A DNA stretch of 64,000 nucleotides, taken from NCBI RefSeq assembly GCF_902729405.1, contig NZ_LR746496.1:4216001-4280000 (forward strand), given 5' to 3'. The translations under genes and the position numbers were made by a program. Origin of the DNA: Acididesulfobacillus acetoxydans. Lineage in GTDB: Bacteria; Bacillota; Desulfitobacteriia; Desulfitobacteriales; Desulfitobacteriaceae. Shown piece by piece: positions 8,953 through 63,639 of this stretch (positions are counted from its first letter, which is position 1; each line of letters opens with the position of its first letter). The notes beneath the pieces were generated by a model, which searched no databases, had not been told where the DNA came from, and was given only the letters and a program-made list of their open reading frames with translations.

Positions 8953-9326
8953 TGCAAACAGATGAGAACGTGACCTGCGGCAGGTGTATCTATTGCGGCG
9001 CGACCGAAAATGTTCATGCTTTCTGTAAGACCCAACACAGTGACGGCGAGGATAAGAAAGTCTGCTATTGTGTCTGCCCAGATTGTGTCGGGCATATTGA
9101 AAAGAATCTGGAACCGGACGTTCCTTGTGAGACCTGTGAAATCTGCGGGAAAGAAACCGAAGTGTTCGCTTTCTGTTCCTACGCTCCGACGGAAGAGGGG
9201 GCCCCCGAGAAAGTCTGCTACTGTGTCTGTCCGGACTGTGTGGAAAAGCTCCAGGACAAAGTCTTTGATTATTATGAGGAAGCCCTGAATCAAGGGTACA
9301 ACCCTGTTAAACCGGAAAAGAAATAA
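8953..9326 (+). CDS. cysteine-rich protein with two tandem CxxC/CYCVCPDC modules, 124 aa
   Basis: I do not recognise a named family. The protein is an internal duplication of about 45 residues. Module 1 (residues 7-55) runs CGRCIYCG...HAFC...VCYCVCPDC, and module 2 (57-110) runs CETCEICG...FAFC...VCYCVCPDC. Each has eight or more cysteines spaced as for zinc or iron-sulfur binding. Both end in an acidic helix (HIEKNLE, KLQDKVFDYYEEAL). ATG 8953 is chosen because AAAGGAG stands 9 bases before it, whereas the frame opens earlier without a site. It stands alone between the PucR-type regulator and a terminator-like hairpin. It may be a metal-binding or redox adaptor. Confidence 0.75.
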
Positions 9327-9970: not shown

Positions 9971-11263
9971 CTAAACCGCCTCGTCCTCCCCCGGATTACC
10001 CTCCCCTATTACCTTAGCGGCTTCCGCCGGCGGCAGCTGTTCTACACCTCTGAGTTTGCGCTCAATCGTGCGGGACTTGCGGGCCGCCGTTTCAATGCTA
10101 TTGCTGGCTTCCTGCAGCTTCTTGTGGGTCTTGTCCAACAGATCGCCAAATTTGCCGAACTCCGTTTTTACCGCCCCCAATAAGACCCAGACTTCGGAAG
10201 AGCGTTTCTCGATCGCCAAGGTACGGAAACCCATCTGCAGACTGTTGAGAAGGGCCAGGAGGGTCGTCGGGCCGGTGATGACCACCCGAAAATCTTTCTG
10301 CAAAGCGTCGCAGAGCCCCGGTCTGCGCAGGACTTCCGCGTACAGCCCCTCTGTCGGCAGAAACATAATCCCGAAATCCGTGGTGTTGGGCGGGTCTAAG
10401 TACTTGTCGCGGATGTCTTTCGCTTCCGCTTTGATACGGTTCTCCAGGGCCTTGCCGGACATTTCCGCTTTCATGGGGTCACCCTCGTCGAGGGCGTCCA
10501 GCAGCCTCTGATAGTCTTCTACCGGAAACTTGGCGTCGATGGGCAGCCAAATGCCCGCGGCCTCCGCCGCGTCGTGCCCGGGAAGTTTTATGGCAAATTC
10601 GACCCGCTCGCTGCTTCCCTTTTTCGTGGAAACGTTCGTCTCATACTGCTCTCGGGCCAAGACCTGTTCTAAGAGACTCGCCAACTGGATCTCGCCGAAA
10701 TTACCTCTGGCTTTGACGTTAGTCAATACCCTCTTCAGGTCCCCGACGCCGTTGGCCAGGGTCTGCATTTCGCCGAGACCTTTGTGCACCTGCTCCAGCC
10801 TTTCGCTGACCAGCTTAAAGGATTCACCCAAGCGCTGCTCCAGAGTGGCGTGGAGTTTTTCATCCACCGTGGTCCTCATTTCCTCCAGCTTCTTCGCATT
10901 ATCATCCCTCAGGAGCCCGAGCTGCTGTTCCACGGTCTCCCGCATCTTGTCCAGCCTTTGCTCATTCGACTGAGTCAATTGGTTCAATTGACGCGCAAAG
11001 ATCTCCTGTTGCGTCTGCTGCAGATTCATGACTTCCGTCATGCGGGTCAAGAGGGAATCGTTAAACCCTTTGAGGTTGTTCCCTAATTCCATCCGGTTTT
11101 GAGACATTTCCTCCCTAACCGCCTGTTCGTTGCGAATCACACTGTTTTCGAGATTTGTCAGTTTCATCCCGAGCTGCTGGCCCGCGTCTTTGCCCCGGCG
11201 GGTCAGAATAATCCACTGGGATATCAGAACTGCTGCCACAAGCAGCAATATGGCAACTTGCAT
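9971..11263 (-). CDS. rmuC: DNA recombination protein RmuC
   Basis: A 430-residue RmuC. An N-terminal membrane helix (residues 2-20, VAILLLVAAVLISQWIIL) is followed by a long coiled coil (about 30-190) and the PD-(D/E)XK-like nuclease core (about 200-370) with VKARGNFGEIQLASLLE, LPIDAKFPVEDYQRL and the GIMFLPTEGLYAEVLRR block that mark the family. It is thought to limit rearrangements at inverted repeats. The start is ATG 11263, 7 bases after AAGGAGAT; the frame extends 27 codons further without support. Transcribed alone leftward. Confidence 0.92.
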   Translation of the reverse strand: MQVAILLLVAAVLISQWIILTRRGKDAGQQLGMKLTNLENSVIRNEQAVREEMSQNRMELGNNLKGFNDSLLTRMTEVMNLQQTQQEIFARQLNQLTQSNEQRLDKMRETVEQQLGLLRDDNAKKLEEMRTTVDEKLHATLEQRLGESFKLVSERLEQVHKGLGEMQTLANGVGDLKRVLTNVKARGNFGEIQLASLLEQVLAREQYETNVSTKKGSSERVEFAIKLPGHDAAEAAGIWLPIDAKFPVEDYQRLLDALDEGDPMKAEMSGKALENRIKAEAKDIRDKYLDPPNTTDFGIMFLPTEGLYAEVLRRPGLCDALQKDFRVVITGPTTLLALLNSLQMGFRTLAIEKRSSEVWVLLGAVKTEFGKFGDLLDKTHKKLQEASNSIETAARKSRTIERKLRGVEQLPPAEAAKVIGEGNPGEDEAV

Positions 11264-11386
11264 GGTTCGATCTCCTTCCCGGTTATTATTTGGGGTGCAG
11301 GACAATCTAAACAGAAGGACTTCCGGCCGTGCTGAAGAAAGCAAAAAGTCGCAGCTTCATGATAAGCCTGCAGCGGTTCCGTAACG

Positions 11387-11750: not shown

Positions 11751-11923
11751 GACTCCCACTTCTACAAGTGGGAGTGGGTCCCACGCACCCTGCTTCGGTG
11801 GGGGTAGACTCCATCCTTCGGCACAAAAGCATAATTTCACGCTCTGTGCCTACGGCGATAGTCTCCACCGGAGACTATCGCCACCGAAGACTCGATGTTC
11901 AGCTTTAGCTGAACGAGTTCACT
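11751..11923 (+). mobile_element. PATE/MITE-like element with IS200/IS605-type ends
   Basis: Starts with the stem CTCCCACTT/AAGTGGGAG (11752-11775), typical of IS605-family ends, and finishes with a full two-hairpin repeat: stem CGATAGTCTCC/GGAGACTATCG, stem GTTCAGCTTTAGCTGAAC and tail GAGTTCACT (11855-11923). There is no transposase between them. It interrupts the NrtR-like fragment. The IS605 link is an inference from hairpins and the TTCAC tail. Confidence 0.6.
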
Positions 11924-39651: not shown

Positions 39652-39747
39652 AAACGTTAAAACTCCTCTCAAAAATTGATACTTTAAGAAAGATATTCCA
39701 TCCATTGCACTTCAGCGCGATAGCATTCGTTAAAGGCTAAGTGCTTT

Positions 39748-39815
39748 CGACGAAAGTGTCCACTGGACACTTTTGCCGAAGTCTCAATGTTCAGCTTAAG
39801 CTGAACGAGTTCACT
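39748..39815 (+). repeat. two-hairpin dispersed repeat, full copy
   Basis: Stem 1 is AAGTGTCC/GGACACTT (loop ACT), stem 2 is GTTCAGCTTAAGCTGAAC, tail GAGTTCACTT. It lies between the small coiled-coil gene and btuF, inside the presumed operon. A stem on the coding transcript here could change mRNA processing or partial termination. Confidence 0.8.
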
Positions 39816-39851
39816 TGGCCATTTCACTTTGCAATTTTAAAAAGGCCGCAT

Positions 39852-40121: not shown

Positions 40122-40158
40122 CCAAAAAACCCTTTACAGAATACCTGTAAAGGGTTTT
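40122..40158 (-). terminator. intrinsic terminator of the cobalamin riboswitch
   Basis: On the minus strand CCCTTTACAG and CTGTAAAGGG pair around GTATT, followed by TTTTTT. It lies between the aptamer and the start at 40091, so it is the expression platform. Confidence 0.9.
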
Positions 40159-40179
40159 GCCTTGCCCGCCTAGCCGGAT

Positions 40180-40412
40180 CGTTGGTCACCCGGCGAAAGC
40201 AACACCTCCCCTATCTTCCGTAGGTATCTGTGCTGTTCCGGAGCGAGCAGGTCTCCTGGCTTAAGTTCATCGCTGCCTTACGTCTTCCCGGTTTTACCCA
40301 GTGACACTATGTAAGGCCGCTCACTATCACAGTGGCGGGACCGCGTCAGATTTTAACTGACTTCCCTTTTTCAATACTTTCCCCTTGAGAAAGTATACTC
40401 GCGCCGCATCTA
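40180..40412 (-). promoter_or_regulatory. cobalamin riboswitch
   Basis: The conserved aptamer parts occur in order on the minus strand: GGGAAGTC, CCCGCCACTGTGA (40340s), CCGGGAAGACGTAAGGC, and the B12 box AGCCAGGAGACCTGC (40247-40261). The long P13-type arm and a terminator follow. It should shut off the btuFCD-cobN unit when cobalamin is plentiful. Confidence 0.93.
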
Positions 40413-40456
40413 TTGAGTTTTCGTACTTTTAGGTTAACACAGTGGCACAGGGCTTG

Positions 40457-40750
40457 TCAATCCTCACCTTGTGTTCCTGTGTTCCCGAAGTGTTTGTCAC
40501 ATGATCGAAACATTGTCAGAGCTTCAAGAAGGGCCGCCCGAGAACCAACATTGTGAGCATCGTCTCTCATGCGATCATGCGGTCCTAACAGGCGGCAATA
40601 CATAATGAAGAGAAGGTATATTATTAGATTCTGCCAAGTGAATCTAATAACCAAAGTAAGAAAGTATTGAGCACTGAGAATCGCCACTGTAAACCCTCGG
40701 TATGTCCCGTTGGGGTCTAAACAGAAAAACAAAAGCCCATGAAAATTCAT
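40457..40750 (-). CDS. hypothetical membrane protein, 97 aa
   Basis: Unrecognised. It has one or two hydrophobic stretches (GFTVAILSAQYFLTLVI and LIIYLLFIMYC) followed by a polar tail. Its ATG overlaps the stop (ATGA) of the tiny frame at 40747, which in turn overlaps the cbiM stop, so the three would be coupled. The position after cbiM is where cbiN or cbiQ would be expected, and the hydrophobic half could be a broken CbiQ start, but the match is too weak to claim. It ends just upstream of the cobalamin riboswitch on the same strand. Confidence 0.4.
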   Translation of the reverse strand: MNFHGLLFFCLDPNGTYRGFTVAILSAQYFLTLVIRFTWQNLIIYLLFIMYCRLLGPHDRMRDDAHNVGSRAALLEALTMFRSCDKHFGNTGTQGED

Positions 40751-40833
40751 TCCGCATCCTGACGCCGTAAGACCTCCATGGCCTCTTCCTTCTGCTTGAT
40801 TCTATTCGCTTTTTTGCCGGATATCCGGCTCAT
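40747..40833 (-). CDS. possible 28-residue peptide coupled to cbiM
   Basis: A short basic frame (MSRISGKKANRIKQKEEAME...) whose ATG overlaps the TGA of cbiM and whose TGA overlaps the ATG of the next frame. The two ATGA junctions are suggestive; the peptide has no known relatives to me. It may instead be part of a decayed gene. Confidence 0.3.
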   Translation of the reverse strand: MSRISGKKANRIKQKEEAMEVLRRQDAE

Positions 40834-41867
40834 CTGTTTGCACTTACTTCTCCGTGCCCGGATTTACGGACAAAATGTTGAACAATAAAAGCAATCAGCC
40901 CGATTAAAAGTAAACCCACAAAGGCGGACAAAAGATAACCCAAGGCTTGCTGCCAGAACGTATGGTCATATCCGGCAATACCATAGCCTTTGAGCAAAGC
41001 GTGTTTCCAGAAATCACCGAATTTTTGCATCCCGGCGGGCACAAATCCTAATTTTTCCTTTAAATCTTTTCCACCCCATTCGCCCCAGGCAGTTCCCGAA
41101 GCCAAAAGCCCCAAGGGAGTGAACACGGCAATAACCAATAAGCCAATAACATACTTCCTCAGCCGCAACGCCGGGCTTGTGCTTTCGCGGTTATTTCTCA
41201 ATTCCAACATAGCCGGGTTAGAACGTTGCAGATAGGCAAGAACCATGGTGGTAACCACAGCCTCCACCGGCCCGGCTATCGTCGTATGCGCAAAAAGCAT
41301 GGCCGGTACAGCCACATTCAAGCCATAAGGGCTGTAGAGCGGAGTCCCGTTGGCGGTATGGAAAAGAAGCGGCTGCAAGCCAAATTCTGTTCCGGCACAA
41401 ACAGCCGCGACACACAAGCCGATGTAGCCGCCGATGGCAGCACCCACTAAACGGCGTTTTGACGAAATCACGCTCTTACCGGCAATTAAACGGTAAATGG
41501 CGTAACTCAGGAACGGCAGCACAATGGCCATGTTGAAGATGTTTGCCCCTAAGGCCAAAATACCCCCATCCCCGAAAAAGATCGCCTGTATCACTAAGGC
41601 AATAGATACACCAATAGCCGCTGTCCATGGACCAAACAAAATAGCCAGCAACGAGCCGCCCACCGCATGTGCTGTCGTCCCATCGGGAATAGGAACATTG
41701 AACATCATCAGCGTAAAACAAAAGGCCGCACCCACAGACAGTAGAGGAATGTTCTTAACACTCAGTGTTTTAGAAGTCTTCTTAGCCGCAATGCCCAAGA
41801 CAGAGGCGCTCACAATCCCCATCAGCGCATCGGTTTGCGGACTTAAGTATCCGTCCGGAATATGCAT
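40830..41867 (-). CDS. cbiM: cobalt/nickel transporter membrane component CbiM with fused C-terminal domain
   Basis: Substrate-binding (S) component of an ECF-type cobalt or nickel importer. It starts MHIPDGYLSP, the metal-binding N-terminus of CbiM/NikM (His2 needed), then has seven or so helices with FNVPIPDGTTAHAVGG and GDGGILALGANIFNMA. Residues about 245-345 form a second part with two helices, LRKYVIGLLVIAVFTPLGLLASGTAWGEW and ALGYLLSAFVGLLLIG, like the PDGLE/CbiN domain fused in NikMN-type proteins. GAGGGAGGG precedes ATG. No CbiQ or CbiO is found here, so the energising module must come from elsewhere or the system works alone. Confidence 0.9.
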   Translation of the reverse strand: MHIPDGYLSPQTDALMGIVSASVLGIAAKKTSKTLSVKNIPLLSVGAAFCFTLMMFNVPIPDGTTAHAVGGSLLAILFGPWTAAIGVSIALVIQAIFFGDGGILALGANIFNMAIVLPFLSYAIYRLIAGKSVISSKRRLVGAAIGGYIGLCVAAVCAGTEFGLQPLLFHTANGTPLYSPYGLNVAVPAMLFAHTTIAGPVEAVVTTMVLAYLQRSNPAMLELRNNRESTSPALRLRKYVIGLLVIAVFTPLGLLASGTAWGEWGGKDLKEKLGFVPAGMQKFGDFWKHALLKGYGIAGYDHTFWQQALGYLLSAFVGLLLIGLIAFIVQHFVRKSGHGEVSANR

Positions 41868-41974
41868 GGACTGGTCCCTCCCTCATTAATTAGCCAATTT
41901 TGTTAATACCGATTTGTTCATGCCGATTTATGTCTTTACTGGAAATTACACATGCCTTACCCTCCTCTCCTAAA

Positions 41975-42027
41975 AAAGAAAAGACCATAGAGAGACCCGT
42001 AATTAAGTCGGACCTCCATGGCCTTTT
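41975..42027 (-). terminator. intrinsic terminator in the cbiM leader
   Basis: On the minus strand AAAGGCCATGGAGGTCCG pairs imperfectly with CGGGTCTCTCTATGGTCTTT, followed by TCTTTTTT. It stands about 110 bases before cbiM, after a structured region, so it looks like an attenuator. Confidence 0.75.
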
Positions 42028-42165
42028 TTAAATCTTTAATTTTGGAAACAAACTGACTTTGAGGCTGGCACAACCGCTGTGCTAATCGAGAATGCCGATC
42101 GCGTTTTCTTCAGGTGCCTCACCCGTTAATTAGGTATTCGACACAGTCACCAGAATACCTTCTTG
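42028..42165 (-). promoter_or_regulatory. structured cbiM leader, possible metal or corrinoid riboswitch of unassigned class
   Basis: On the minus strand a 7-bp stem GGTATTC/GAATACC (42133-42159) is followed by a junction closed by GAGGC/GCCTC (42116-42120 with 42061-42065) that holds two small hairpins, ATCG/CGAT and GCACA/TGTGC. The piece GGGTGAGGCACCTG recalls the start of the M-box, but the rest of that motif is missing. No cobalamin box is present. Confidence 0.5.
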
Positions 42166-42349
42166 ATCCTGAACATATTTTTATTTTATTTTTAGGCAAT
42201 GAGTCTGAAGAATCCGTTACACCTTACTTGGCACTTATTTTTACGGTTTTCCGTGAATTAGTTTAATACCGTAAAAATTGTCAAAGACTGTTATGCTATG
42301 GGGGTAAAGGCCTCATCCATCCCCCATTCCAATAAAGGAGTATTCGTCC

Positions 42350-42869
42350 ATGCCTAATCTAGACATTCCGGAAAATATCATTTCCGCCCTAGCCTCCAGC
42401 CGACAAGCTTACGAGGAGGGGATAGTCCATTATCGCGCGCAAACGGTCCAAAGACGGCTCAATAATGTCCTGTGACTGTCATTGCCTTTCTTATGGCGAT
42501 CACACAGGAGCCTGCAGACACATTGTGGCCGTTTTTAAAAACCGCCCAGAATCAGCTCGCTTCTCAAGCCTCCGCCCCGGCCCTGCAGAACCGGATGGTT
42601 ACCGAACTCCTCGCCTCCTTGTCCGATCCGCGCGCGGACATCCCCCGGGAGACGCTGGAAGTGGAAGTGGATCTGCACATTCTTCCCAGATCCACAGGAA
42701 CCGCGCACTTACAGTTGGGGCTGGGCTTGCAGCGCTATACCTCGTTAAAGATTTTAGATTCCTCACCTGTGTTCATAAAGGGAAGACCCTCGAACTCGGC
42801 AGGAGCTTTACTTCGACCCTGTCCGGCACACCTTGGCGCCTGAGAATCAGAAGATTAACGGAGGCCTAA
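42350..42869 (+). pseudogene. SWIM zinc finger/SNF2-helicase N-terminal remnant
   Basis: Starts properly with AAAGGAG and ATG 42350, then loses frame at least three times. Frame 1 gives PENIISALASSRQAYEEGIV; frame 2 from 42465 gives CDCHCLSYGDHTGACRHIVAVF, a SWIM motif (CxC...CxH); frame 3 gives LEVEVDLHILPR and LGLGLQRYTSLKI; frame 2 returns with ALYLVKDFRFLTCVHKGKTLELG, the SNF2-associated pattern. The helicase itself is absent, so it is both frameshifted and truncated. Confidence 0.8.
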
Positions 42870-42943: not shown

Positions 42944-43876
42944 TTAAATCCTTTGCTTTATTCTGAATTCTGAATTCATAAGAAGCTCCCGCAGCCGGCG
43001 GGCGGCCGCGTAGCAGTCTTCCGCCCCAAGGATAGCAGACACTACTGCAACCCCGTCAATCCCGGCGGACATGACCTGACTCACGTTCATTTCCTTGATC
43101 CCTCCGATCCCAACGACCGGTATGGTGACCGATTTCTTGATCCGCTCTAACGCGACTTTATTTGGATCGTTGATATAGGCCACAAATTCACTGTCTGCCA
43201 GTCCATTCTCAACCCATTTTTGTGCGATGGTCTCTACGGAATCATGGAGTTTTTCACCGTTATGGGAACAGTTGTCCATACTAACAAAAGCTAGAGGAAA
43301 TGCACCGTTCAGGTATCTGGCATAGGCCAGAGAGGCAATCTTAGCCATGATGTGCCGGGGCTGCTCAGGCCCGGTCAGCATATCCTGCCGTATATCTTCG
43401 AGATATGCCCCGGACATTTTCTTAAGACTGTAACCTTTTTCCGTGATAGTAAAACTGGCCGTTTGCAGGGACGGCTTAGTAAAAATCTCCCTCAGCCTTT
43501 TCCAATCACCCGGACGCGACATATCCCCTTCAAGCGCTTCACCTACACTGCCAATTACCTTTTTTACCAGCGTCCCGTCAGGGTTCATGACGACCAACAG
43601 GCTAAGGTTGTCATAAGGGACATAGATTCGATCAATTATCTCCAGATCATATGCTTCCACAGCTATAATGCCTGTATCAGCTTTGCCCTTATTTAGGAGT
43701 GTTTGTTGCAAAGCGGCAACGAACCCGCGAAAGATATTCCCGGCCCCAAAATGTACCCAAGTAGGATTTTCTCCGGTTCTAGCAATCATGTCGTTATAAG
43801 AAAATCCCGGCAGGTCAATTCCTGCTTCTACCCATGGTTCGACGTTCTTTAAGCTTTCTTGGCTCAAATTCAGCAT
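42944..43876 (-). pseudogene. chimera of UxuB/mannitol dehydrogenase N-part and ThiE C-terminus
   Basis: An open 310-residue frame with GGAGG before ATG 43876. Residues 1-240 match the NAD-binding half of mannonate oxidoreductase/mannitol dehydrogenase (WVHFGAGNIFRGF, ITEKGYS, MDNCSHNG, EFVAYINDPNKV). At residue 241 (about 43153) the sequence switches to the last 60 residues of thiamine phosphate synthase (KKSVTIPVVGIGGI, GIDGVAVVSAIL, ARRLRELL). The dehydrogenase catalytic Lys-Asn-His part, which follows this point in complete enzymes, is absent, and so is most of ThiE, so neither activity is expected. It is the last gene of the hexuronate operon; a deletion fused two genes in frame. Confidence 0.8.
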
Positions 43877-43931
43877 CTCTCTATTAATCCTCCGTGAAAT
43901 GTGGGTTCCTGGCAATTATGATCCAAGGAGC

Positions 43932-45032
43932 CTATCTTTGCACCCTGGCACTGCCACCCTTCATCAGACTCTCCACTTCCTTGAGGCTGGCCATCGAGGT
44001 ATCCCCGGGTGTGGTCATGGCTAGGGCGCCGTGCGCGGCCCCATAATTGACCGCTTTATCCGGATCCCCGGTCGTTATGAGACCATAAATAAGACCGGAG
44101 GCAAAACTGTCACCGCCGCCCACGCGGTCGAAGATTTCCAGACCACCATAAGCATTGGCTTTGTAGATCTTGCCGCCTGCCCAGCACATCGCGCTCCAGT
44201 CATTGACCGTTGCCGTTTTAACGGTCCGCAGAGTGGTGGCAACAACCTTGAAGTTCGGATAAGCTCTCACTACCTGGTCGATCATCTTCTTGTAACCGTC
44301 GAGATTCAGTTCTTTCAGGTTGGCGTCATTTCCTTCGACTTCAAAGCCCAGGGAAGCGGTAAAGTCTTCCTCATTGCCGACCATTACATCGACATACTTG
44401 GCCAATTCCTTGTTGACCTCTTGGGCTCTTGGCTGGCCGCCGATGCTCTTCCAGAGAGACGGGCGGTAGTTGAGGTCATAGGAGACAATCGTACCGTACT
44501 TCTTGGCCGTTTGCACAGCTTCCAGAACAACATCCGGCGTGGTATCCGACAAAGCAGCGAAGATGCCGCCGGTGTGAAACCACCTTGAGCCGAGTTTGCC
44601 AAAAATATAGTCCCAATCGATATCTCCCTTTTTGAGTTGGGAGGCCGCGGTATTCCCCCGGTCGGAAACGCCCAGGGCGCCGCGGACGCCGAACCCTCTT
44701 TCCGTAAAGTTCATCCCGTTGCGAACCACACGCCCGATTCCATCGTAAGGAATCCACTGGATCAGAGACGAATCAACGCCTCCCTGCAAAATGAAATCCT
44801 CCACCAGCCGGCCAATTTCATTATCGGCCAAGGCGGTGACCACACCGACGTTCATGCCAAAACATTTTCTTAAGCCCCGGGATACGTTATACTCTCCGCC
44901 ACCTTCCCAGACCTTGAACTCCCGGGCATTTTTGATCCGACCGTTTCCGGGATCGAAGCGCAGCATGACTTCTCCGAGAGAGATGCAATCGTAGCGGCAG
45001 CTCTCTTTGGGCTTGACATCGATTATGGACAT
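43932..45032 (-). CDS. kdgK: 2-dehydro-3-deoxygluconokinase (KDG kinase)
   Basis: PfkB-family sugar kinase that makes KDPG from 2-keto-3-deoxygluconate. Visible are SLGEVMLRFDPG near the start, GGGEYNVSRGL (sugar pocket), SYDLNYRPSLW, VGNEEDF and the catalytic FDRVGGGDSFASGLIYGL near residue 300, where Asp is the base. The length (366 aa) fits the larger KdgK group found in uronate operons. ATG 45032 follows AAAGGAAAG. It follows eda with a 296-base gap and is adjacent to other hexuronate genes. Confidence 0.9.
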   Translation of the reverse strand: MSIIDVKPKESCRYDCISLGEVMLRFDPGNGRIKNAREFKVWEGGGEYNVSRGLRKCFGMNVGVVTALADNEIGRLVEDFILQGGVDSSLIQWIPYDGIGRVVRNGMNFTERGFGVRGALGVSDRGNTAASQLKKGDIDWDYIFGKLGSRWFHTGGIFAALSDTTPDVVLEAVQTAKKYGTIVSYDLNYRPSLWKSIGGQPRAQEVNKELAKYVDVMVGNEEDFTASLGFEVEGNDANLKELNLDGYKKMIDQVVRAYPNFKVVATTLRTVKTATVNDWSAMCWAGGKIYKANAYGGLEIFDRVGGGDSFASGLIYGLITTGDPDKAVNYGAAHGALAMTTPGDTSMASLKEVESLMKGGSARVQR

Positions 45033-45041
45033 TGCAATCAC

Positions 45042-45328: not shown

Positions 45329-45976
45329 CTATTTCGCTCTGGCGGCCTTGATCTTCTCGATGAATTGTTTGGCGATGGTGGTGATGGATTCGTAGTCGCC
45401 TTTCTTGGCGCCCGCGGTCAGGCTGCCGCCGACGCCTACGGCGACGGCACCGGCCTTGATCCATTCTTCGACGTTATCGAGGCTGACCCCGCCGGTCGGC
45501 ATCATGGCCGCTTGCGGGATAGGTCCTTTGATCGCTTTGATGATCTTCGGTCCGAACACTTCCCCCGGGAAGATCTTGACGATGTCCGCACCGGCTTCCA
45601 TGCACTCTACAGCTTCTTTCACTGTCATCGCACCCGGCATGCAAGGCACTTGGTAACGGTTGCAGAGCTTGACGGTTTCCACGCTGAGGCTCGGGCTGAC
45701 GATGTATTCCGCACCGGCGAGAATGGCCGTTCTGGCGGTTTCCGGATCGAGCACGGTCCCGGCGCCGATGATGATTGGACCGTTTTTGTATTTTGCCGCC
45801 AATTCTTTAATGAGATCGGCGGCTCCGGGTACGGTGAAGGTGATTTCAATCGCCACGACTCCGCCGGCGATACAGGCTTCCGTGATTTTGAACGCCTGCT
45901 CCGTGCTTTCCGCCCGGACAACGGCCACCAGCCCGCCTTCTTTAATTCTGGAAACGATTTCTTCCTTGGTTGCCAT
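45329..45976 (-). CDS. eda: 2-dehydro-3-deoxyphosphogluconate aldolase (KDPG aldolase)
   Basis: Cleaves KDPG to pyruvate and glyceraldehyde-3-phosphate, the last step of the pathway in this operon. It is a class I TIM-barrel aldolase of 215 residues: LVAVVRAES, AIEITFTVPGA, GAGTVLDPE, VSPSLSVE, VKIFPGE (Schiff-base Lys) and PTGGVSLDNVEEWIKAGA are all in place. ATG 45976 follows AAAGGATG. It lies 22 bases after the mannonate dehydratase gene. Confidence 0.94.
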   Translation of the reverse strand: MATKEEIVSRIKEGGLVAVVRAESTEQAFKITEACIAGGVVAIEITFTVPGAADLIKELAAKYKNGPIIIGAGTVLDPETARTAILAGAEYIVSPSLSVETVKLCNRYQVPCMPGAMTVKEAVECMEAGADIVKIFPGEVFGPKIIKAIKGPIPQAAMMPTGGVSLDNVEEWIKAGAVAVGVGGSLTAGAKKGDYESITTIAKQFIEKIKAARAK

Positions 45977-45998
45977 GAGAATCATCCTTTCTTATCCA

Positions 45999-47057
45999 CT
46001 ATCTTGATTCCAAGGTATCCCAAACACCCCATAAGTACATGATACCAAGCGCCCTGTCGTAGAGGCCGTAGCCAGGCCGGCACTTTTTATTCCAGATGTG
46101 CCGTCCGTGGTCAGGACGGACATAGCCCGTGAACCCGCCTTCATAATAGGCTTTGACGATCGCGACGATGTCCAGGGAACCGTCCCCGGTCCGGTGGGAG
46201 GTCTCGACAAAATCGCCGTTGTCAAACCTTCGAACGTTTCGAATGTGAGCAAAAGCGATCCGGTCGACGAATTCCCTGACCATGGCGGGCACGTCATTCT
46301 CCGCATTCGCCCCAAGAGAACCGCTGCAGAGTGTCAGTGCGTTATAAGGACTGTCGACCAGCTTCAAGAACCGTCTCAGATTGGCTTGACCCGTAAGAAT
46401 CCGGGGCAGACCGAAGACCGGCCAGGGCGGATCGTCAGGGTGAATGGCCATCTTTATGTCATTCGCCTCCGCCACAGGAATGATCTGTTCCAGAAAATAC
46501 TTGAGGTTCTGCCACAAGTCTTCTTCCGTCACATTCCTATAGGCTTCGAAAAGCTCGTTCAAGCGGCTAAGGCGCTCCGGCTCCCAGCCGGGCATGGTCA
46601 GGTCGGGATTGGAGGCGATCTCGCTCACCAATTCCATCGGATCCATGTCCTTGATTTTAGCATTTTCATAGAAGAGAGCCGTTGATCCGTCATCCAGCCT
46701 CCTGGCCATGTCCGTCCTCGTCCAATCGAAAATCGGCATGAAATTGTAACAGATCACTTTGACTCCGACTTGGGCCAGCTTGGCAATCGTCTTTTTATAG
46801 TTTTCGATGTAACGATCCCGCGTCTTAAGCCCCAGTTTAATGTCCTCGTGCACGTTGACGCTTTCGACGACGTCCAGGCTGAATCCGTACTGATCCGCCC
46901 GCTTCTTGACCGCCAGGATTTTTTCCATAGGCCAGTCTTCTCCGGCCGGCACATCGTGCAGCGCCCAGACGATGCCTGAAACACCCGGGATCTGCCGGAT
47001 CTGCTCCAGTGTCACCGTATCATTCCCTTCGCCATACCAGCGAAAAACCATTTTCAT
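45999..47057 (-). CDS. uxuA: mannonate dehydratase
   Basis: Dehydrates D-mannonate to 2-keto-3-deoxygluconate. This 352-residue TIM-barrel protein of the xylose-isomerase-like superfamily starts MVFRWYGEGNDTVTLEQIRQIPGV and has YNFMPIFDWTRTD, KMAIHPDDPPW, ITLCSGSLG-like, FAHIRNVRR and YVRPDHGRHIW, all characteristic UxuA blocks including metal ligands. ATG is preceded by GGGGGAATC, a moderate site. It is placed between uxaA and eda. Its usual partner, mannonate oxidoreductase UxuB, is present only as the broken chimera at 42944. Confidence 0.94.
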   Translation of the reverse strand: MKMVFRWYGEGNDTVTLEQIRQIPGVSGIVWALHDVPAGEDWPMEKILAVKKRADQYGFSLDVVESVNVHEDIKLGLKTRDRYIENYKKTIAKLAQVGVKVICYNFMPIFDWTRTDMARRLDDGSTALFYENAKIKDMDPMELVSEIASNPDLTMPGWEPERLSRLNELFEAYRNVTEEDLWQNLKYFLEQIIPVAEANDIKMAIHPDDPPWPVFGLPRILTGQANLRRFLKLVDSPYNALTLCSGSLGANAENDVPAMVREFVDRIAFAHIRNVRRFDNGDFVETSHRTGDGSLDIVAIVKAYYEGGFTGYVRPDHGRHIWNKKCRPGYGLYDRALGIMYLWGVWDTLESR

Positions 47058-47097: not shown

Positions 47098-48597
47098 CTA
47101 AAGGGTCACGCCATTTTTGAAGATGGCAATATCCCGGAAACCCAGGTTCTCGGCTTTCGTCGCTTCTCCGGAAGCGACGCGCAGGACATACTTCCAGAAA
47201 TCATCCGCCAGGTCTTCCATGCTTGTTCCGTTCAAAAGGACCCCGGCGTCAAAATCGATCCAATGGCTCTTCCTCTGGTAGAGGCCGCTATTCGTCGAAA
47301 CTTTCACGGTAGGGACGCAGGTCCCCAGCGGGGTGCCCCGACCGGTCGTGAAGAGGACCATCTGGCAACCGGCTGCCGCCAGAGCCGTCGCCGCCACCAT
47401 GTCGTTCCCGGGAGCGGCCAGCAGATTGAGTCCCCGGCACATGACCCGTCCGGCGTAATCCAGCACATCGACAACTTCCGACGTTCCGCCTTTCTGCGTG
47501 CAACCAAGGGACTTGTCCTCCAGCGTCGTAATGCCGCCCTTCTTGTTCCCGGGAGAAGGATTCTCATAGATGGGCTGTTTGTAGGAAGCATAATAATCTT
47601 TAAAGTCGTTAACCAGGCGAACCGTTTTGGCAAAGACTTCTTCATTCACGGCCCGGTTCATCAAGAGCGTTTCCGCTCCAAACATCTCCGGAACCTCGGT
47701 CAGGACAGTCGCCCCTCCCGCCGCAGTCAGGCGGTCGGAAAACGCCCCGACAAGCGGATTGGCGGTGATTCCGGAAAAGCCGTCCGACCCTCCGCACTTG
47801 AGGCCGATCGTCAACTCGGAAACCGGGCACTTCTCCCGTTGGAAGCGCTCGGCGTAGTCCGCGAGTTTCCGGACGATTTCAACACCGGCCGCAAGCTCAT
47901 CCTCTACTTCCTGCGCGACGAGAAACTTGACCCGCTCTTCGTTATAGTCCCCGAGAACTTTCTTGATCTCGCCGACATTGCTGTTCTCACAGCCCAAACC
48001 GAGGACGAGGACTCCCGCGGCATTCGGGTGCTGAATGAGGTCAGCCAGGATCTGCTGCGTTCGCAGTTGATCCTCTCCCATCTGGGAACAACCGTAAGGA
48101 TGCTTAAATTCAAAGACTCCGTCCAGTCCGAGACGGTCTTTCAGCGCTTCTCTTGCTTCCCGGGCGATCAATTCAGCCACCCGGTTGACGCAGCTGACGG
48201 TCGGCACAATCCAGATCTCGTTCCGAATCCCCACTCTGCCGTCCTCTCTGCGGTAGCCCCAGAACGTGTCCTTCGAGCGTTCAGAAGGCGTTTGCGCATT
48301 GCGTTCCTGGTAACCAGGCGCATATTGGTAACTCAGAGTCCCGGCAAGATTTGTGTGCGTGTTGTGGGTGTGCACCCATTCTCCGCCTCTGATGGCCTTT
48401 GTCGCCTGGCCGATGGGGAAACCGTATTTTACGACGTTTGCCCTCTCAGCGATATCAGAGACTGCAACTTTGTGTCCCCCCGGCACATCCTCCAGCAGAG
48501 TAATCTCCATGCTGCCTAGACGAACTGTTTCTCCTTTTTTCAGGTCCCTGAGCGCCACTGCAACATTATCCGCGTCATTCAGTCTGAGCAGTTCCAT
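47098..48597 (-). CDS. uxaA: altronate dehydratase
   Basis: Dehydrates D-altronate to 2-keto-3-deoxygluconate. The 499-residue protein has the N-terminal SAF domain (first 100 residues, GGEWVHTHNTHTNLAG) and the C-terminal UxaA/GarD domain with KHPYGCSQMGEDQLRT, LGLGCENSNVG, LKCGGSDGFSGITANP and LFTTGRGTPLGTCVPT. The ATG at 48597 is chosen by GGTGGGAG 7 bases upstream. It follows uxaB by 24 bases. Iron-dependent enzyme in the cytoplasm; part of the galacturonate branch. Confidence 0.94.
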   Translation of the reverse strand: MELLRLNDADNVAVALRDLKKGETVRLGSMEITLLEDVPGGHKVAVSDIAERANVVKYGFPIGQATKAIRGGEWVHTHNTHTNLAGTLSYQYAPGYQERNAQTPSERSKDTFWGYRREDGRVGIRNEIWIVPTVSCVNRVAELIAREAREALKDRLGLDGVFEFKHPYGCSQMGEDQLRTQQILADLIQHPNAAGVLVLGLGCENSNVGEIKKVLGDYNEERVKFLVAQEVEDELAAGVEIVRKLADYAERFQREKCPVSELTIGLKCGGSDGFSGITANPLVGAFSDRLTAAGGATVLTEVPEMFGAETLLMNRAVNEEVFAKTVRLVNDFKDYYASYKQPIYENPSPGNKKGGITTLEDKSLGCTQKGGTSEVVDVLDYAGRVMCRGLNLLAAPGNDMVAATALAAAGCQMVLFTTGRGTPLGTCVPTVKVSTNSGLYQRKSHWIDFDAGVLLNGTSMEDLADDFWKYVLRVASGEATKAENLGFRDIAIFKNGVTL

Positions 48598-48621
48598 GGT
48601 TTCACTCCCACCCAATTCGTA

Positions 48622-50148
48622 TTATTTGAGCATCGTGCGTTGAATAGCCTTCTCCACACCCTGGTTGACAATGGCGTGCAGGTCAGCCGCCACCGCTTCG
48701 GCAAATCCGCTCACTTCCGTTAAGTCCTGACCCCAGAACTCGACTTTGGCCAAAACGGTGCGCACCAGCTTGAGCACGGATTCCTGGCTCAGATCGCATT
48801 CCGACCAGACGGATTCGAGAAATTTGAGAACTTCCGGGTCATCCCGCATCTCAAACTGGCTCTCACCCCGCACGCACTTCATGCTCGTTCCCTCGACCTT
48901 ACCGCGGTAGAGCGCGAGGAGAGAAGCCAGGGAAAAGCTGATCTTCAAGGGAATCCGCCCGGTCTTCTCCTTGTAGCCGAGAAGGGATGGAAGAACGCGG
49001 GTCTTGAATTTGGAAATGGAGTTGAGAAGAATGCTCAGGAGGTAGTGCTTAATGTAAGGATTGCGGAACCTTTCCAAAACAGAGGCGGCATATTCCTTCT
49101 GCGTTTTCTGTTCAATCCCGGTAGATGGCATGATTTCTTCCGCAATGATTTGTTCGAGATACGGTCCCAACACCGGATGTTCCACTATTTCTTTGACCGT
49201 GTCCAGACCGTAGAGGAAAGCGACAGGAACACAAGAGGTATGGCTTCCGTTCAGGAAGCGCACTTTCAGGGTCCGGTACGGCGTCATATCGTCTGTCCAT
49301 ACGACATTGAGACCCGCCTGCGCAAATGGCAGTCTCTTTCGCAGTTCCTGCGGACCTTCAACGACCCAGAGATGGAACAGCTCACCGGTGTCGAGCATCT
49401 GATCCTCATAACCCAAACGCTCTGTCAGTGCCGCCACTTCGTCTCTGGGGTAACCCGGAACGACCCGATCCACCAGCGTGTTGACAAACGTATTGTGCTC
49501 TTTGAGCCAGGTCGAGAACTCCGCCGGCAGCTTCCACTCTTCGGCCAGGCGCAGGACGATCTTCTTCAGGTTATCCCCGTTCCGGTCGATCAGCTCGCAG
49601 GGAATGATCACCATGCCCTTGGCCGAGTCTCCTTGGAAATGCTGAAAACGGTGATAGAGGTAAACCGCGAGCTTGCCCGGGAACGAAGCCGGCGGACAAT
49701 CTGTCGGGCGGTCCGCTGGGTTATAGGCGATGCCGGCCTCAGTGGTATTGGAGACGACATATTCAATATCCGGGTTTTCCGCACATTTTAGGTATTCCTG
49801 CCAATCGGCGAAAATGTCGATCCCGCGGCTAATCGAACCGATGACCGTCTCGTCGCTCACGGGCTGCCCGTCACGGATTCCGCGCAACAGCAAGGTATAC
49901 AGGCCGTCCTGTTGGTTCAGCCTCTCCACCATGCCCTCGTTTAAAGGCTGGACAACAACCACTTTGCCGTTAAAGAGACCCTTGCGGTCCATGGCATCGA
50001 ACATCCAATCGACAAAGGCACGCAGAAAGTTGCCTTCACCGAACTGGATCACTCTCTCCGGTAAGTTCGCCGGGTATTCCGGAACTTTGAGACCCTCAGG
50101 AAAGGGGAAACCTCCCTCTAATAAAGCTCTTGTTAATCTCTGAGTCAT
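48622..50148 (-). CDS. uxaB: tagaturonate reductase
   Basis: NADH-dependent reduction of D-tagaturonate to D-altronate. The 508-residue polyol dehydrogenase has the N-terminal Rossmann half (RVIQFGEGNFLRAFVDWMFD, VVVVQPLN, YVVSNTTEAGI) and the helical C-terminal half with VRFLNGSHTS (catalytic K-N-H set; the Lys of LKVRFLNGSH). ATG 50148 follows GGAGGTAGAG. It lies 25 bases before uxaA and is intact, in contrast to the related uxuB-derived chimera. Uronate isomerase (UxaC) is not in the window. Confidence 0.94.
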   Translation of the reverse strand: MTQRLTRALLEGGFPFPEGLKVPEYPANLPERVIQFGEGNFLRAFVDWMFDAMDRKGLFNGKVVVVQPLNEGMVERLNQQDGLYTLLLRGIRDGQPVSDETVIGSISRGIDIFADWQEYLKCAENPDIEYVVSNTTEAGIAYNPADRPTDCPPASFPGKLAVYLYHRFQHFQGDSAKGMVIIPCELIDRNGDNLKKIVLRLAEEWKLPAEFSTWLKEHNTFVNTLVDRVVPGYPRDEVAALTERLGYEDQMLDTGELFHLWVVEGPQELRKRLPFAQAGLNVVWTDDMTPYRTLKVRFLNGSHTSCVPVAFLYGLDTVKEIVEHPVLGPYLEQIIAEEIMPSTGIEQKTQKEYAASVLERFRNPYIKHYLLSILLNSISKFKTRVLPSLLGYKEKTGRIPLKISFSLASLLALYRGKVEGTSMKCVRGESQFEMRDDPEVLKFLESVWSECDLSQESVLKLVRTVLAKVEFWGQDLTEVSGFAEAVAADLHAIVNQGVEKAIQRTMLK

Positions 50149-50209
50149 TTTCTCTACCTCCGTCATCCCTATCCCAGGGAGTTTTCCGCTTGCCCTGTCA
50201 ACGGGCGTC

Positions 50210-52149: not shown

Positions 52150-52481
52150 TCAGCGTTCCAGTATGACCGGACGGTGAAAACTCCGTCCGTCTATCTCGAC
52201 CTTTTCCGTCGGGAAAAGACCGGTTGCGGTCAAGATTTCCGGACCCTTCTCACCCACAAGCACAGTGTCCTCGGCTTTCGTCCCCTGCAAGGTGGGATTC
52301 CAATCCAAGGCCTGAGCGACGGCCAAAATTCGCCCCGTTTGCGCAGTTGCTTTGATTTCGCGGGATTGATATCCTGCCAGTCCGCCTTGATGATGATATT
52401 GCCATTCACCCTTATAACCGAGACGGGCATAGGCTTCCTGCCCCGCTCTGAAGACCTCGCCAAGACTGACCCCAGGACGAG

Positions 52482-52482
<1 letters not shown>
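52150..52482 (-). pseudogene. M24 family metallopeptidase C-terminal fragment fused to pfkA remains
   Basis: The last 110 codons of an open frame that begins in phosphofructokinase sequence. GVSLGEVFRAGQEAYARLG, GEWQYHHQGGLAGYQSREI, WNPTLQGTKAEDTVLV and GPEILTATG are the C-terminal part of Xaa-Pro-peptidase-like M24 proteins. The upstream metal-binding aspartates of the pita-bread fold are not present, so it cannot be an active peptidase. It ends 17 bases before the oxidoreductase gene. Confidence 0.75.
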
Positions 52483-53226
<744 letters not shown>

Positions 53227-62485: not shown

Positions 62486-63238
62486 TCATCGTAAGGGACT
62501 AAGGGGCCCCCCTTGGGGTACGCCTTCCGGACTTTCTTCAAATAGTCCGTCCACCATAATCCCTGCTCTGAGGAATTTATGGATTAGGGATATGACTCGT
62601 CCATCTTTGATGGTGTCTGAGAGGATTTGGATGAGTTTGCTTTGGTTGACCGTGTCAAAGTATTTCTCCAAGTCCATGTCCACGACGTAGACAAAGCCTT
62701 CTGTGATATGCCTTTGACCTGCTCTTAGCGCGTCGTGAGCGCTTCGTTGAGGTCGGAACCCATAGCTGTTGTCTGAGAATTGCCTTTCGAAGATTGGCGA
62801 AAGGACCTGGGTTATGGCCTGTTGGATCAGTCTGTCCACGACGGTAGGGATTCCCAGCTTTCTCATTTTCCCGTTCTCTTTGGGTATTTCTACCCTCCGT
62901 ACGGGTTTCGGACGGTATTTCCCGTCCCAGAGGGCTTGCAAAAGTTCATCCTTGTGTCCTTTCAGGTAGGGTAGAAGTTCGTCCACCTGCATACCGTCGA
63001 TTCCACCCGCGCCTTTGTTCCCCTTCACTCTGTAGTAGGCTCGATTAAGGTTCTCGGCGCTGAGAATTTCCTCTAGCAGTTTCTCTGTCTGCTCGTCTGT
63101 GTTGGTGTTGTCGGTTTTGGTCATCCTGGGTGGCACGCACACTTCTGCATACTCTCTCTGTTCCGCAGATGACCTTTGCAGATAGTCTTTAAAGCAAAGT
63201 TGTCTGTGTTTTAAATTACCACCTTCGGTAACTTTCAT
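62486..63238 (-). pseudogene. group II intron reverse transcriptase/maturase, truncated
   Basis: Intron-encoded protein of the LtrA type, 250 codons left of about 420-600. ATG 63238 has AAAGGAGGTG upstream. Visible RT blocks: NKGAGGIDGMQVDEL (RT0/1), RPKPVRRVEIPKENGKMRKLGIPTVVDRLIQQA (RT2), FSDNSYGFRPQRSAHDAL (RT3), YVVDMDLEKYFDTVNQ (RT3/4), EGVPQGGPLSPL (RT5). The frame then ends, so the YADD catalytic box, maturase (X) and endonuclease domains are missing and the protein is inactive. Confidence 0.9.
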
Positions 63239-63639
63239 TGACCCACACCTCCTTTGGTTCCGCCCTTCCGTCGGTGTCCGGGACACCTCTGTACTATGGC
63301 TTCTGCTGACTCCTCACGACAAATCTTGTTTCAACCGGGCTTCTTACTCCGTTTCCACCCGTCCGTGAGGCCTCCCACGGTAAGACGATTCACTTTCATT
63401 CCATGTCCCCGCAACATTTACGCTGACGTGTCCGTGTAGCTTTTGGGCTTCAACTTGTATGGCAGTCTTACCCCACATTTCGCGCCTAATATTGTTCGTG
63501 TTCCTCGGGCGGAACTTTGCCGCCGGCTTCCTTCAGATTCCATCTCGCAATGGACACCCTTGCCTTGAGCTAATGGTTGGTCGCTACATACCCCCATAAC
63601 GGACTTTCACCGTCAAGTTAATCGTCATGCGTGGCGCAC
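62500..63639 (-). mobile_element. truncated group II intron inserted antisense in IS3 orfB
   Basis: The intron begins at 63639 with GTGCGCC (5' end on the minus strand), then 400 bases of structured 5' RNA (domain I elements such as GTGAAAGTCCGTTATGGGGG and AAGCCGGCGGCAAAGTTCCG), then the reverse transcriptase frame. The 3' half, including domains V and VI, is gone. The 5' junction cuts IS3 orfB (63640 on). Confidence 0.85.

Follow-up and report, generated by a model that had tools for sequence, protein, structure and literature searches.

The analysed window is a stretch of 64,000 nucleotides from the genome of Acididesulfobacillus acetoxydans (here G000), which is assembled as one contig, C1, of 4,520,225 bases. 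It carries a chimeric open frame of 310 codons on the minus strand (42944-43876), with an ATG at 43876 preceded by GGAGG and a stop codon at 42944-42946. A possible TTG at 43915 would give a longer frame of 323 aa. By Pfam, homology and DNA alignment, residues 1-241 (43154-43876, minus strand) derive from the NAD-binding half of UxuB. Residues 242-300 (42977-43153, minus strand) correspond to the last quarter of the ThiE barrel, from IPVVGIGGI to VVSAIL. They are followed by a tail of 10 codons and the stop (42944-42976, minus strand) which is neither UxuB- nor ThiE-like. The ATG, the GGAGG and the 310 open codons bear out the original prediction of an in-frame UxuB/ThiE chimera with a good start and no internal stop.

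DNA comparison with five intact uxuB and three thiE genes placed the switch from UxuB to ThiE between residues 241 and 242 in the ATG frame, at about 43150, in agreement with the predicted change of family at residue 241; the exact join is uncertain by a few bases either way. Here the uxuB-like ...AAAGTC.CGTT meets the thiE-like TTAGA.... Read from alignments with the genes of relatives rather than with the true parents, the sequence shared at the join is at most about 3 nt. The other two frames after the join would stop at 0 and 30 codons. Since one third of joins stay in frame, the in-frame join alone is unremarkable.

A domain search on both halves gave a partial Mannitol_dh and a partial TMP-TENI match. 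In the numbering of the 323-aa frame, Pfam Mannitol_dh covers residues 54-248 (profile positions 4-147 of 199) and TMP-TENI covers residues 256-295 (profile positions 141-180 of 180 only), while TIGR00693 covers the chimera at model positions 143-197 of 197 only. One UxuB match has 69% identity (E 3.8e-120) and one ThiE match 67% (E 1.4e-18), and the homology of both parts is well above chance. In a search of solved structures, the first part matched a sorbitol dehydrogenase, two mannitol dehydrogenases and an oxidoreductase, and the stretch from residues 242-247 to 299 matched thiamine phosphate synthases and TenI. When compared to the UxuB family, the N-terminal half is 64-71% identical to five intact relatives in an alignment of residues 1-243, but the chimera lacks about 295 C-terminal residues, including Mannitol_dh_C. 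Pfam found no Mannitol_dh_C match in the chimera, while the domain is present in both intact relatives scanned, the UxuB-type paralogue of G000 described below and the UxuB of relative G009. The second half of UxuB is thus missing, as had been proposed. The ThiE part is 51-70% identical to all 25 ThiE-like places compared, which came from the loci found in the search of 61 genomes described below, and keeps the GGI and VVSAI motifs, but about three quarters of the barrel are absent.

The catalytic residues of the UxuB family lie in the C-terminal domain, and the C-terminal GGI and VSAI segments of ThiE have a role in phosphate binding. Given the good start and the ribosome-binding site, the chimera may be translated. 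The product, if made, would lack the catalytic domain of UxuB and retain most of the NAD-binding fold and a quarter of the ThiE barrel, so judging from its domains it should have no activity in either reaction. AlphaFold, run on a 24-row alignment, gave residues 1-240 block means of 78-98, whereas those of residues 246-310 were below 50. In this alignment relatives covered the N-terminal half only and the tail was represented by its own sequence, so that its low confidence counts as weak evidence. The chimera scores 37 bits against the NCBIfam fructuronate reductase model, which has a cut-off of 603. Annotation by the best domain match alone would assign it a false function.

The chimera lies at one end of a cluster of sugar acid genes, all on the minus strand. 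Next to it are a kdgK-like sugar kinase of the PfkB family (43932-45041), intact and named by context with no NCBIfam model over its cut-off, and the intact genes eda (KDPG/KHG aldolase, 45329-45985) and uxuA (mannonate dehydratase, 45999-47057). These are followed by an open uxaA-like gene of the altronate/galactarate dehydratase type (47098-48615), which scores 301 bits with the NCBIfam galactarate dehydratase model, below the cut-off of 730.85, and by an intact uxaB (tagaturonate reductase, 48622-50166). A second in-frame joined remnant was found at 52150-52641 (minus strand). In it, a C-terminal piece of phosphofructokinase (PFK) is joined to the 110 C-terminal residues of an M24-like protein, and over that stretch the M24-like part is 86% identical to its full-length counterpart in G001, the sister genome from the same genus. 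Further decayed PFK pieces reach up to 53192, with stops inside the phosphofructokinase. Both cluster ends thus carry in-frame hybrids, and the second one adds to the evidence for a cluster in decay.

The orthologous cluster of G001 has the order M24-gfo-kduI-uxaB-uxaA-(last 87 residues of uxuA)-eda-kdgK, and its gfo is reduced to 108 aa. We found no uxuB in this cluster, in a stretch reaching 3.2 kb past kdgK. Together with the chimera of the window, the truncated uxuA and the lack of a uxuB in G001 indicate that the glucuronate genes of this cluster are breaking down in both members of the genus.

A second set of these genes, with the order uxuB-kdgK-eda-uxuA, is located at about 3.56 Mb of C1; it has the same arrangement in G001 and stays open in both genus members. 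Its UxuB-type protein (538 aa, C1:3563110-3564720) is intact and carries both Mannitol_dh and Mannitol_dh_C. The best NCBIfam match of this paralogue is the fructuronate reductase model, with 112 bits against the cut-off of 603. Because even an intact paralogue scores so low, the cut-off is unsuited to this branch; judged by its gene context, the paralogue is likely a fructuronate reductase. The original prediction went further and proposed that the operon had lost fructuronate reduction and that uxuA was left without its partner. Neither claim is supported, since an intact uxuB-type gene with its own uxuA, eda and kdgK is present at 3.56 Mb. The gene content suggests that fructuronate reduction is probably retained at the genome level and that the 3.56-Mb uxuB-type gene is the likely partner of the window uxuA.

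The other parent is also represented by a whole copy. An intact ThiE forms the C-terminal domain of a ThiF-ThiE protein adjoining ThiC (L132:5557-7125, plus strand, one open frame), and this domain scores 208.6 bits with TIGR00693 (cut-off 145.1). Like the chimera, this protein is a fusion with a C-terminal ThiE domain, but its domains are complete and lie beside ThiC, unlike the partial ones of the chimera. ThiE domains also occur in frames of 367-488 aa in several relatives, in contrast to the chimera, which was found once. The search for a full thiE and uxuB elsewhere in the genome was therefore successful for both genes, and since whole copies of both parents are present, the predicted metabolism is probably unchanged.

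The chimera is not a close copy of either of these genes. Its UxuB half is 65% and its ThiE piece 38% identical to the genome's own copies, so neither half has an identical intact source in the assembly. This speaks against the joining of two real genes by an assembly error, as does the fact that the cluster has degenerated in a similar way in G001. The long repeat in the vicinity (see below) could have misled an assembly, but we consider such an error very unlikely.

We also looked for the same two-part architecture in other genomes and found that it is not widespread. Among 82 genomes of the class there were six matches at E 1e-20 in five genomes, and the window's own was the only one that spans both parts, which makes one genome in 82. 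A second search, at E 1e-5, covered 60 relatives and the genome of the window itself, 61 in all, and each of the other matches listed was confined to one part. In a collection of species genomes, where records very near the genome of the window may be absent, we inspected the best 80 of 585 confirmed loci. None of the 80 had a ThiE piece in an open frame of at least 150 aa, and the UxuB frame continued for at least 248 residues in 77 of them. Two of the remaining three run off the contig, and the third (L087) stops early. Loci such as L042, L043, L049 and L082, with matches apparently reaching residues 304-317, were considered as candidate fusions and ruled out because they have no ThiE piece on the match strand in an open frame of at least 150 aa. 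A literature search returned no paper on a fusion of fructuronate reductase and thiamine phosphate synthase. In the sets searched the chimera therefore differs from a conserved fusion protein family in being confined to a single genome.

The chimera shows no detectable decay. Both domains are truncated, with no stop codons and no conserved residues lost. Of the UxuB columns, 49 are nearly invariant, with a uniformity of at least 95% among the remaining rows, and the chimera departs from none of them; the same holds for all five intact family members, and three more distant rows have two changes each. The dN of the N-terminal half to the five intact relatives is 0.19-0.24, compared with 0.09-0.26 among those relatives, and its dS to the five intact genes is 1.4-2.9 or saturated. 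In a tree of 21 rows, the N-terminal half groups with the five family UxuBs with support of 92/97, below the star threshold. Its end branch of 0.27 is longer than the 0.09-0.21 of the five intact relatives, but not extreme. The lack of decay would be expected from either a recent join or a retained frame, and one sequence cannot separate the two.

A retained frame would be in line with a selected new protein in which an NAD-binding domain is combined with a phosphate-binding quarter barrel. The good start, the absence of stop codons and the motifs kept in both parts agree with this. However, the architecture occurs in one genome only, the catalytic domain is absent, the Rossmann match ends at profile position 147 of 199, and the modelled tail is of low predicted confidence. 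Of the explanations that we weighed, this one is the least credible, and we regard it as highly improbable.

The DNA beyond the ThiE end of the frame is composed partly of copies. The segment at 42318-42855 (plus strand) was copied from the 5' part of an SNF2-type helicase gene. It lacks 86 bases internally and is 91-94% identical to the intact gene, which is located at 2.93 Mb of C1, 1.3 Mb away. It overlaps a repeat of 2458 bp (40123-42580) which contains cbiM and a cobalamin riboswitch in addition to the first part of the helicase piece. This segment recurs in direct orientation at C1:4297829-4300284, 41.7 kb apart, with 99.55% identity. A third cbiM (92%) is present at C1:1041344. A helicase gene also stands beside the uxa cluster of G024 and G014, which would suggest an ancestral neighbour, but this reading is weakened because the window piece was copied from a gene 1.3 Mb away.

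The copied flank raises the possibility that the ThiE piece, of about 180 bp, is itself captured filler, one of several copied fragments that entered at a break where the end of uxuB was lost as well. The helicase piece with its distant source and the overlapping, almost identical 2.46-kb segment both argue for such an origin. On the other side, searches of the genome revealed no thiE of this type that could have served as donor, and the 121 bp that separate the helicase piece from the ThiE piece had no match in the window or in those parts of the same genome that were examined. We give the capture of filler a little under an even chance, which places it slightly ahead of a simple deletion.

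In a simple deletion, thiE would once have been located downstream of uxuB on the same strand, and a single event would have taken away the end of uxuB together with the DNA in between and the first part of thiE. The two pieces are on the same strand and in the right order, and the join is clean and in frame, with an overlap of about 3 nt or less such as an illegitimate deletion would leave. In addition, we found no second salvage-type thiE in G000 and no clear thiM (the only match to the ThiM of G028 is 28% identical, E 3.7e-4, and there is none in G001), as if a salvage operon had been removed. However, in none of the four relatives that have a UxuB-type gene (G001, G009, G014 and G024) was a ThiE match found near it, and the copied pieces in the neighbouring DNA imply more than one event.

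The location of the salvage-type thiE varies among the relatives, which favours a deletion. A thiD-thiM-thiE operon adjoins an rmuC homologue on the opposite strand in G014, G028 and G036; Pfam names cover the window rmuC and the G028 genes, while those of G014 and G036 are named by likeness. In G020, thiE and rmuC are 6 kb apart on opposite strands, and in G004, G007 and G012 they are widely separated or do not share a contig. The notion that thiE always stands beside rmuC is thus too strong, as it holds in four genomes (G014, G028, G036 and G020) and fails in three. Being beside rmuC in four genomes and not in G004, G007 and G012, thiE can evidently move. The window has its own rmuC at 9971-11344 (minus strand), 31.6 kb from the ThiE piece and on the same strand as the piece, and no thi gene was found near it. 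A reciprocal inversion was considered as well. We searched the window, and the surroundings of rmuC in particular, for thiD, thiM, the first part of thiE and the last part of uxuB. The search returned only the known ThiE and UxuB pieces and the distant uxaB match, plus two hits at E 0.5-0.8 which were taken as chance.

The chimera had been called a clear case of fusion by deletion. A deletion is possible, and we hold a simple one as a tentative alternative, but the case is not a clear one. With no thiE near uxuB in the four relatives and a copied flank, the insertion of filler or a multi-step rearrangement is at least as likely.

Taken as a whole, the frame is very probably a young chimera, itself probably without function, which arose through illegitimate joining within a redundant cluster of genes. 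It is most likely a harmless rearrangement scar in a spare gene copy, as both genes are present in full elsewhere in the genome. Relaxed selection on the spare glucuronate genes would have let a break in uxuB persist, and the broken end may have been joined to a piece of thiE with which it had no more than about 3 nt in common. This piece could be captured filler, or it could stem from a salvage-type thiE, since lost, that took part in a deletion or rearrangement. Chimeric pseudogenes formed by illegitimate recombination have a join at little or no homology, partial domains and redundant parents. The chimera agrees with them in all three and differs in that no decay was detected.

It is ordinary in kind. 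We value it as a clear example of spare pathway genes breaking and fusing, and as a moderately instructive record of a decaying redundant cluster. A bolder idea, which we find rather doubtful, is that the lineage has an active process by which fragments of genes are copied to remote sites and joined there on little homology, and that at the two ends of this one cluster it has yielded the open, translatable hybrids UxuB-ThiE and PFK-M24. If true, the cluster would document in nature how hybrid proteins arise and are tried out.

A few further remnants were observed. A frameshifted shard of the UxuB C-terminus (about residues 436-511) lies on the minus strand at C1:3066950-3067157 (L152, about 8956-9154), between a presumed dinB, identified by eye, and an MFS gene. 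Its orientation does not fit a simple inversion, and it is not assignable to the uxuB copy of the chimera. Within the window, 62486-63554 (minus strand) contains domains of a group II intron together with 266 aa of a reverse transcriptase. A short dispersed repeat occurs at 1753-1783, 11846-11923 and 39741-39817, and it is also present at other loci of the genome and in relatives.
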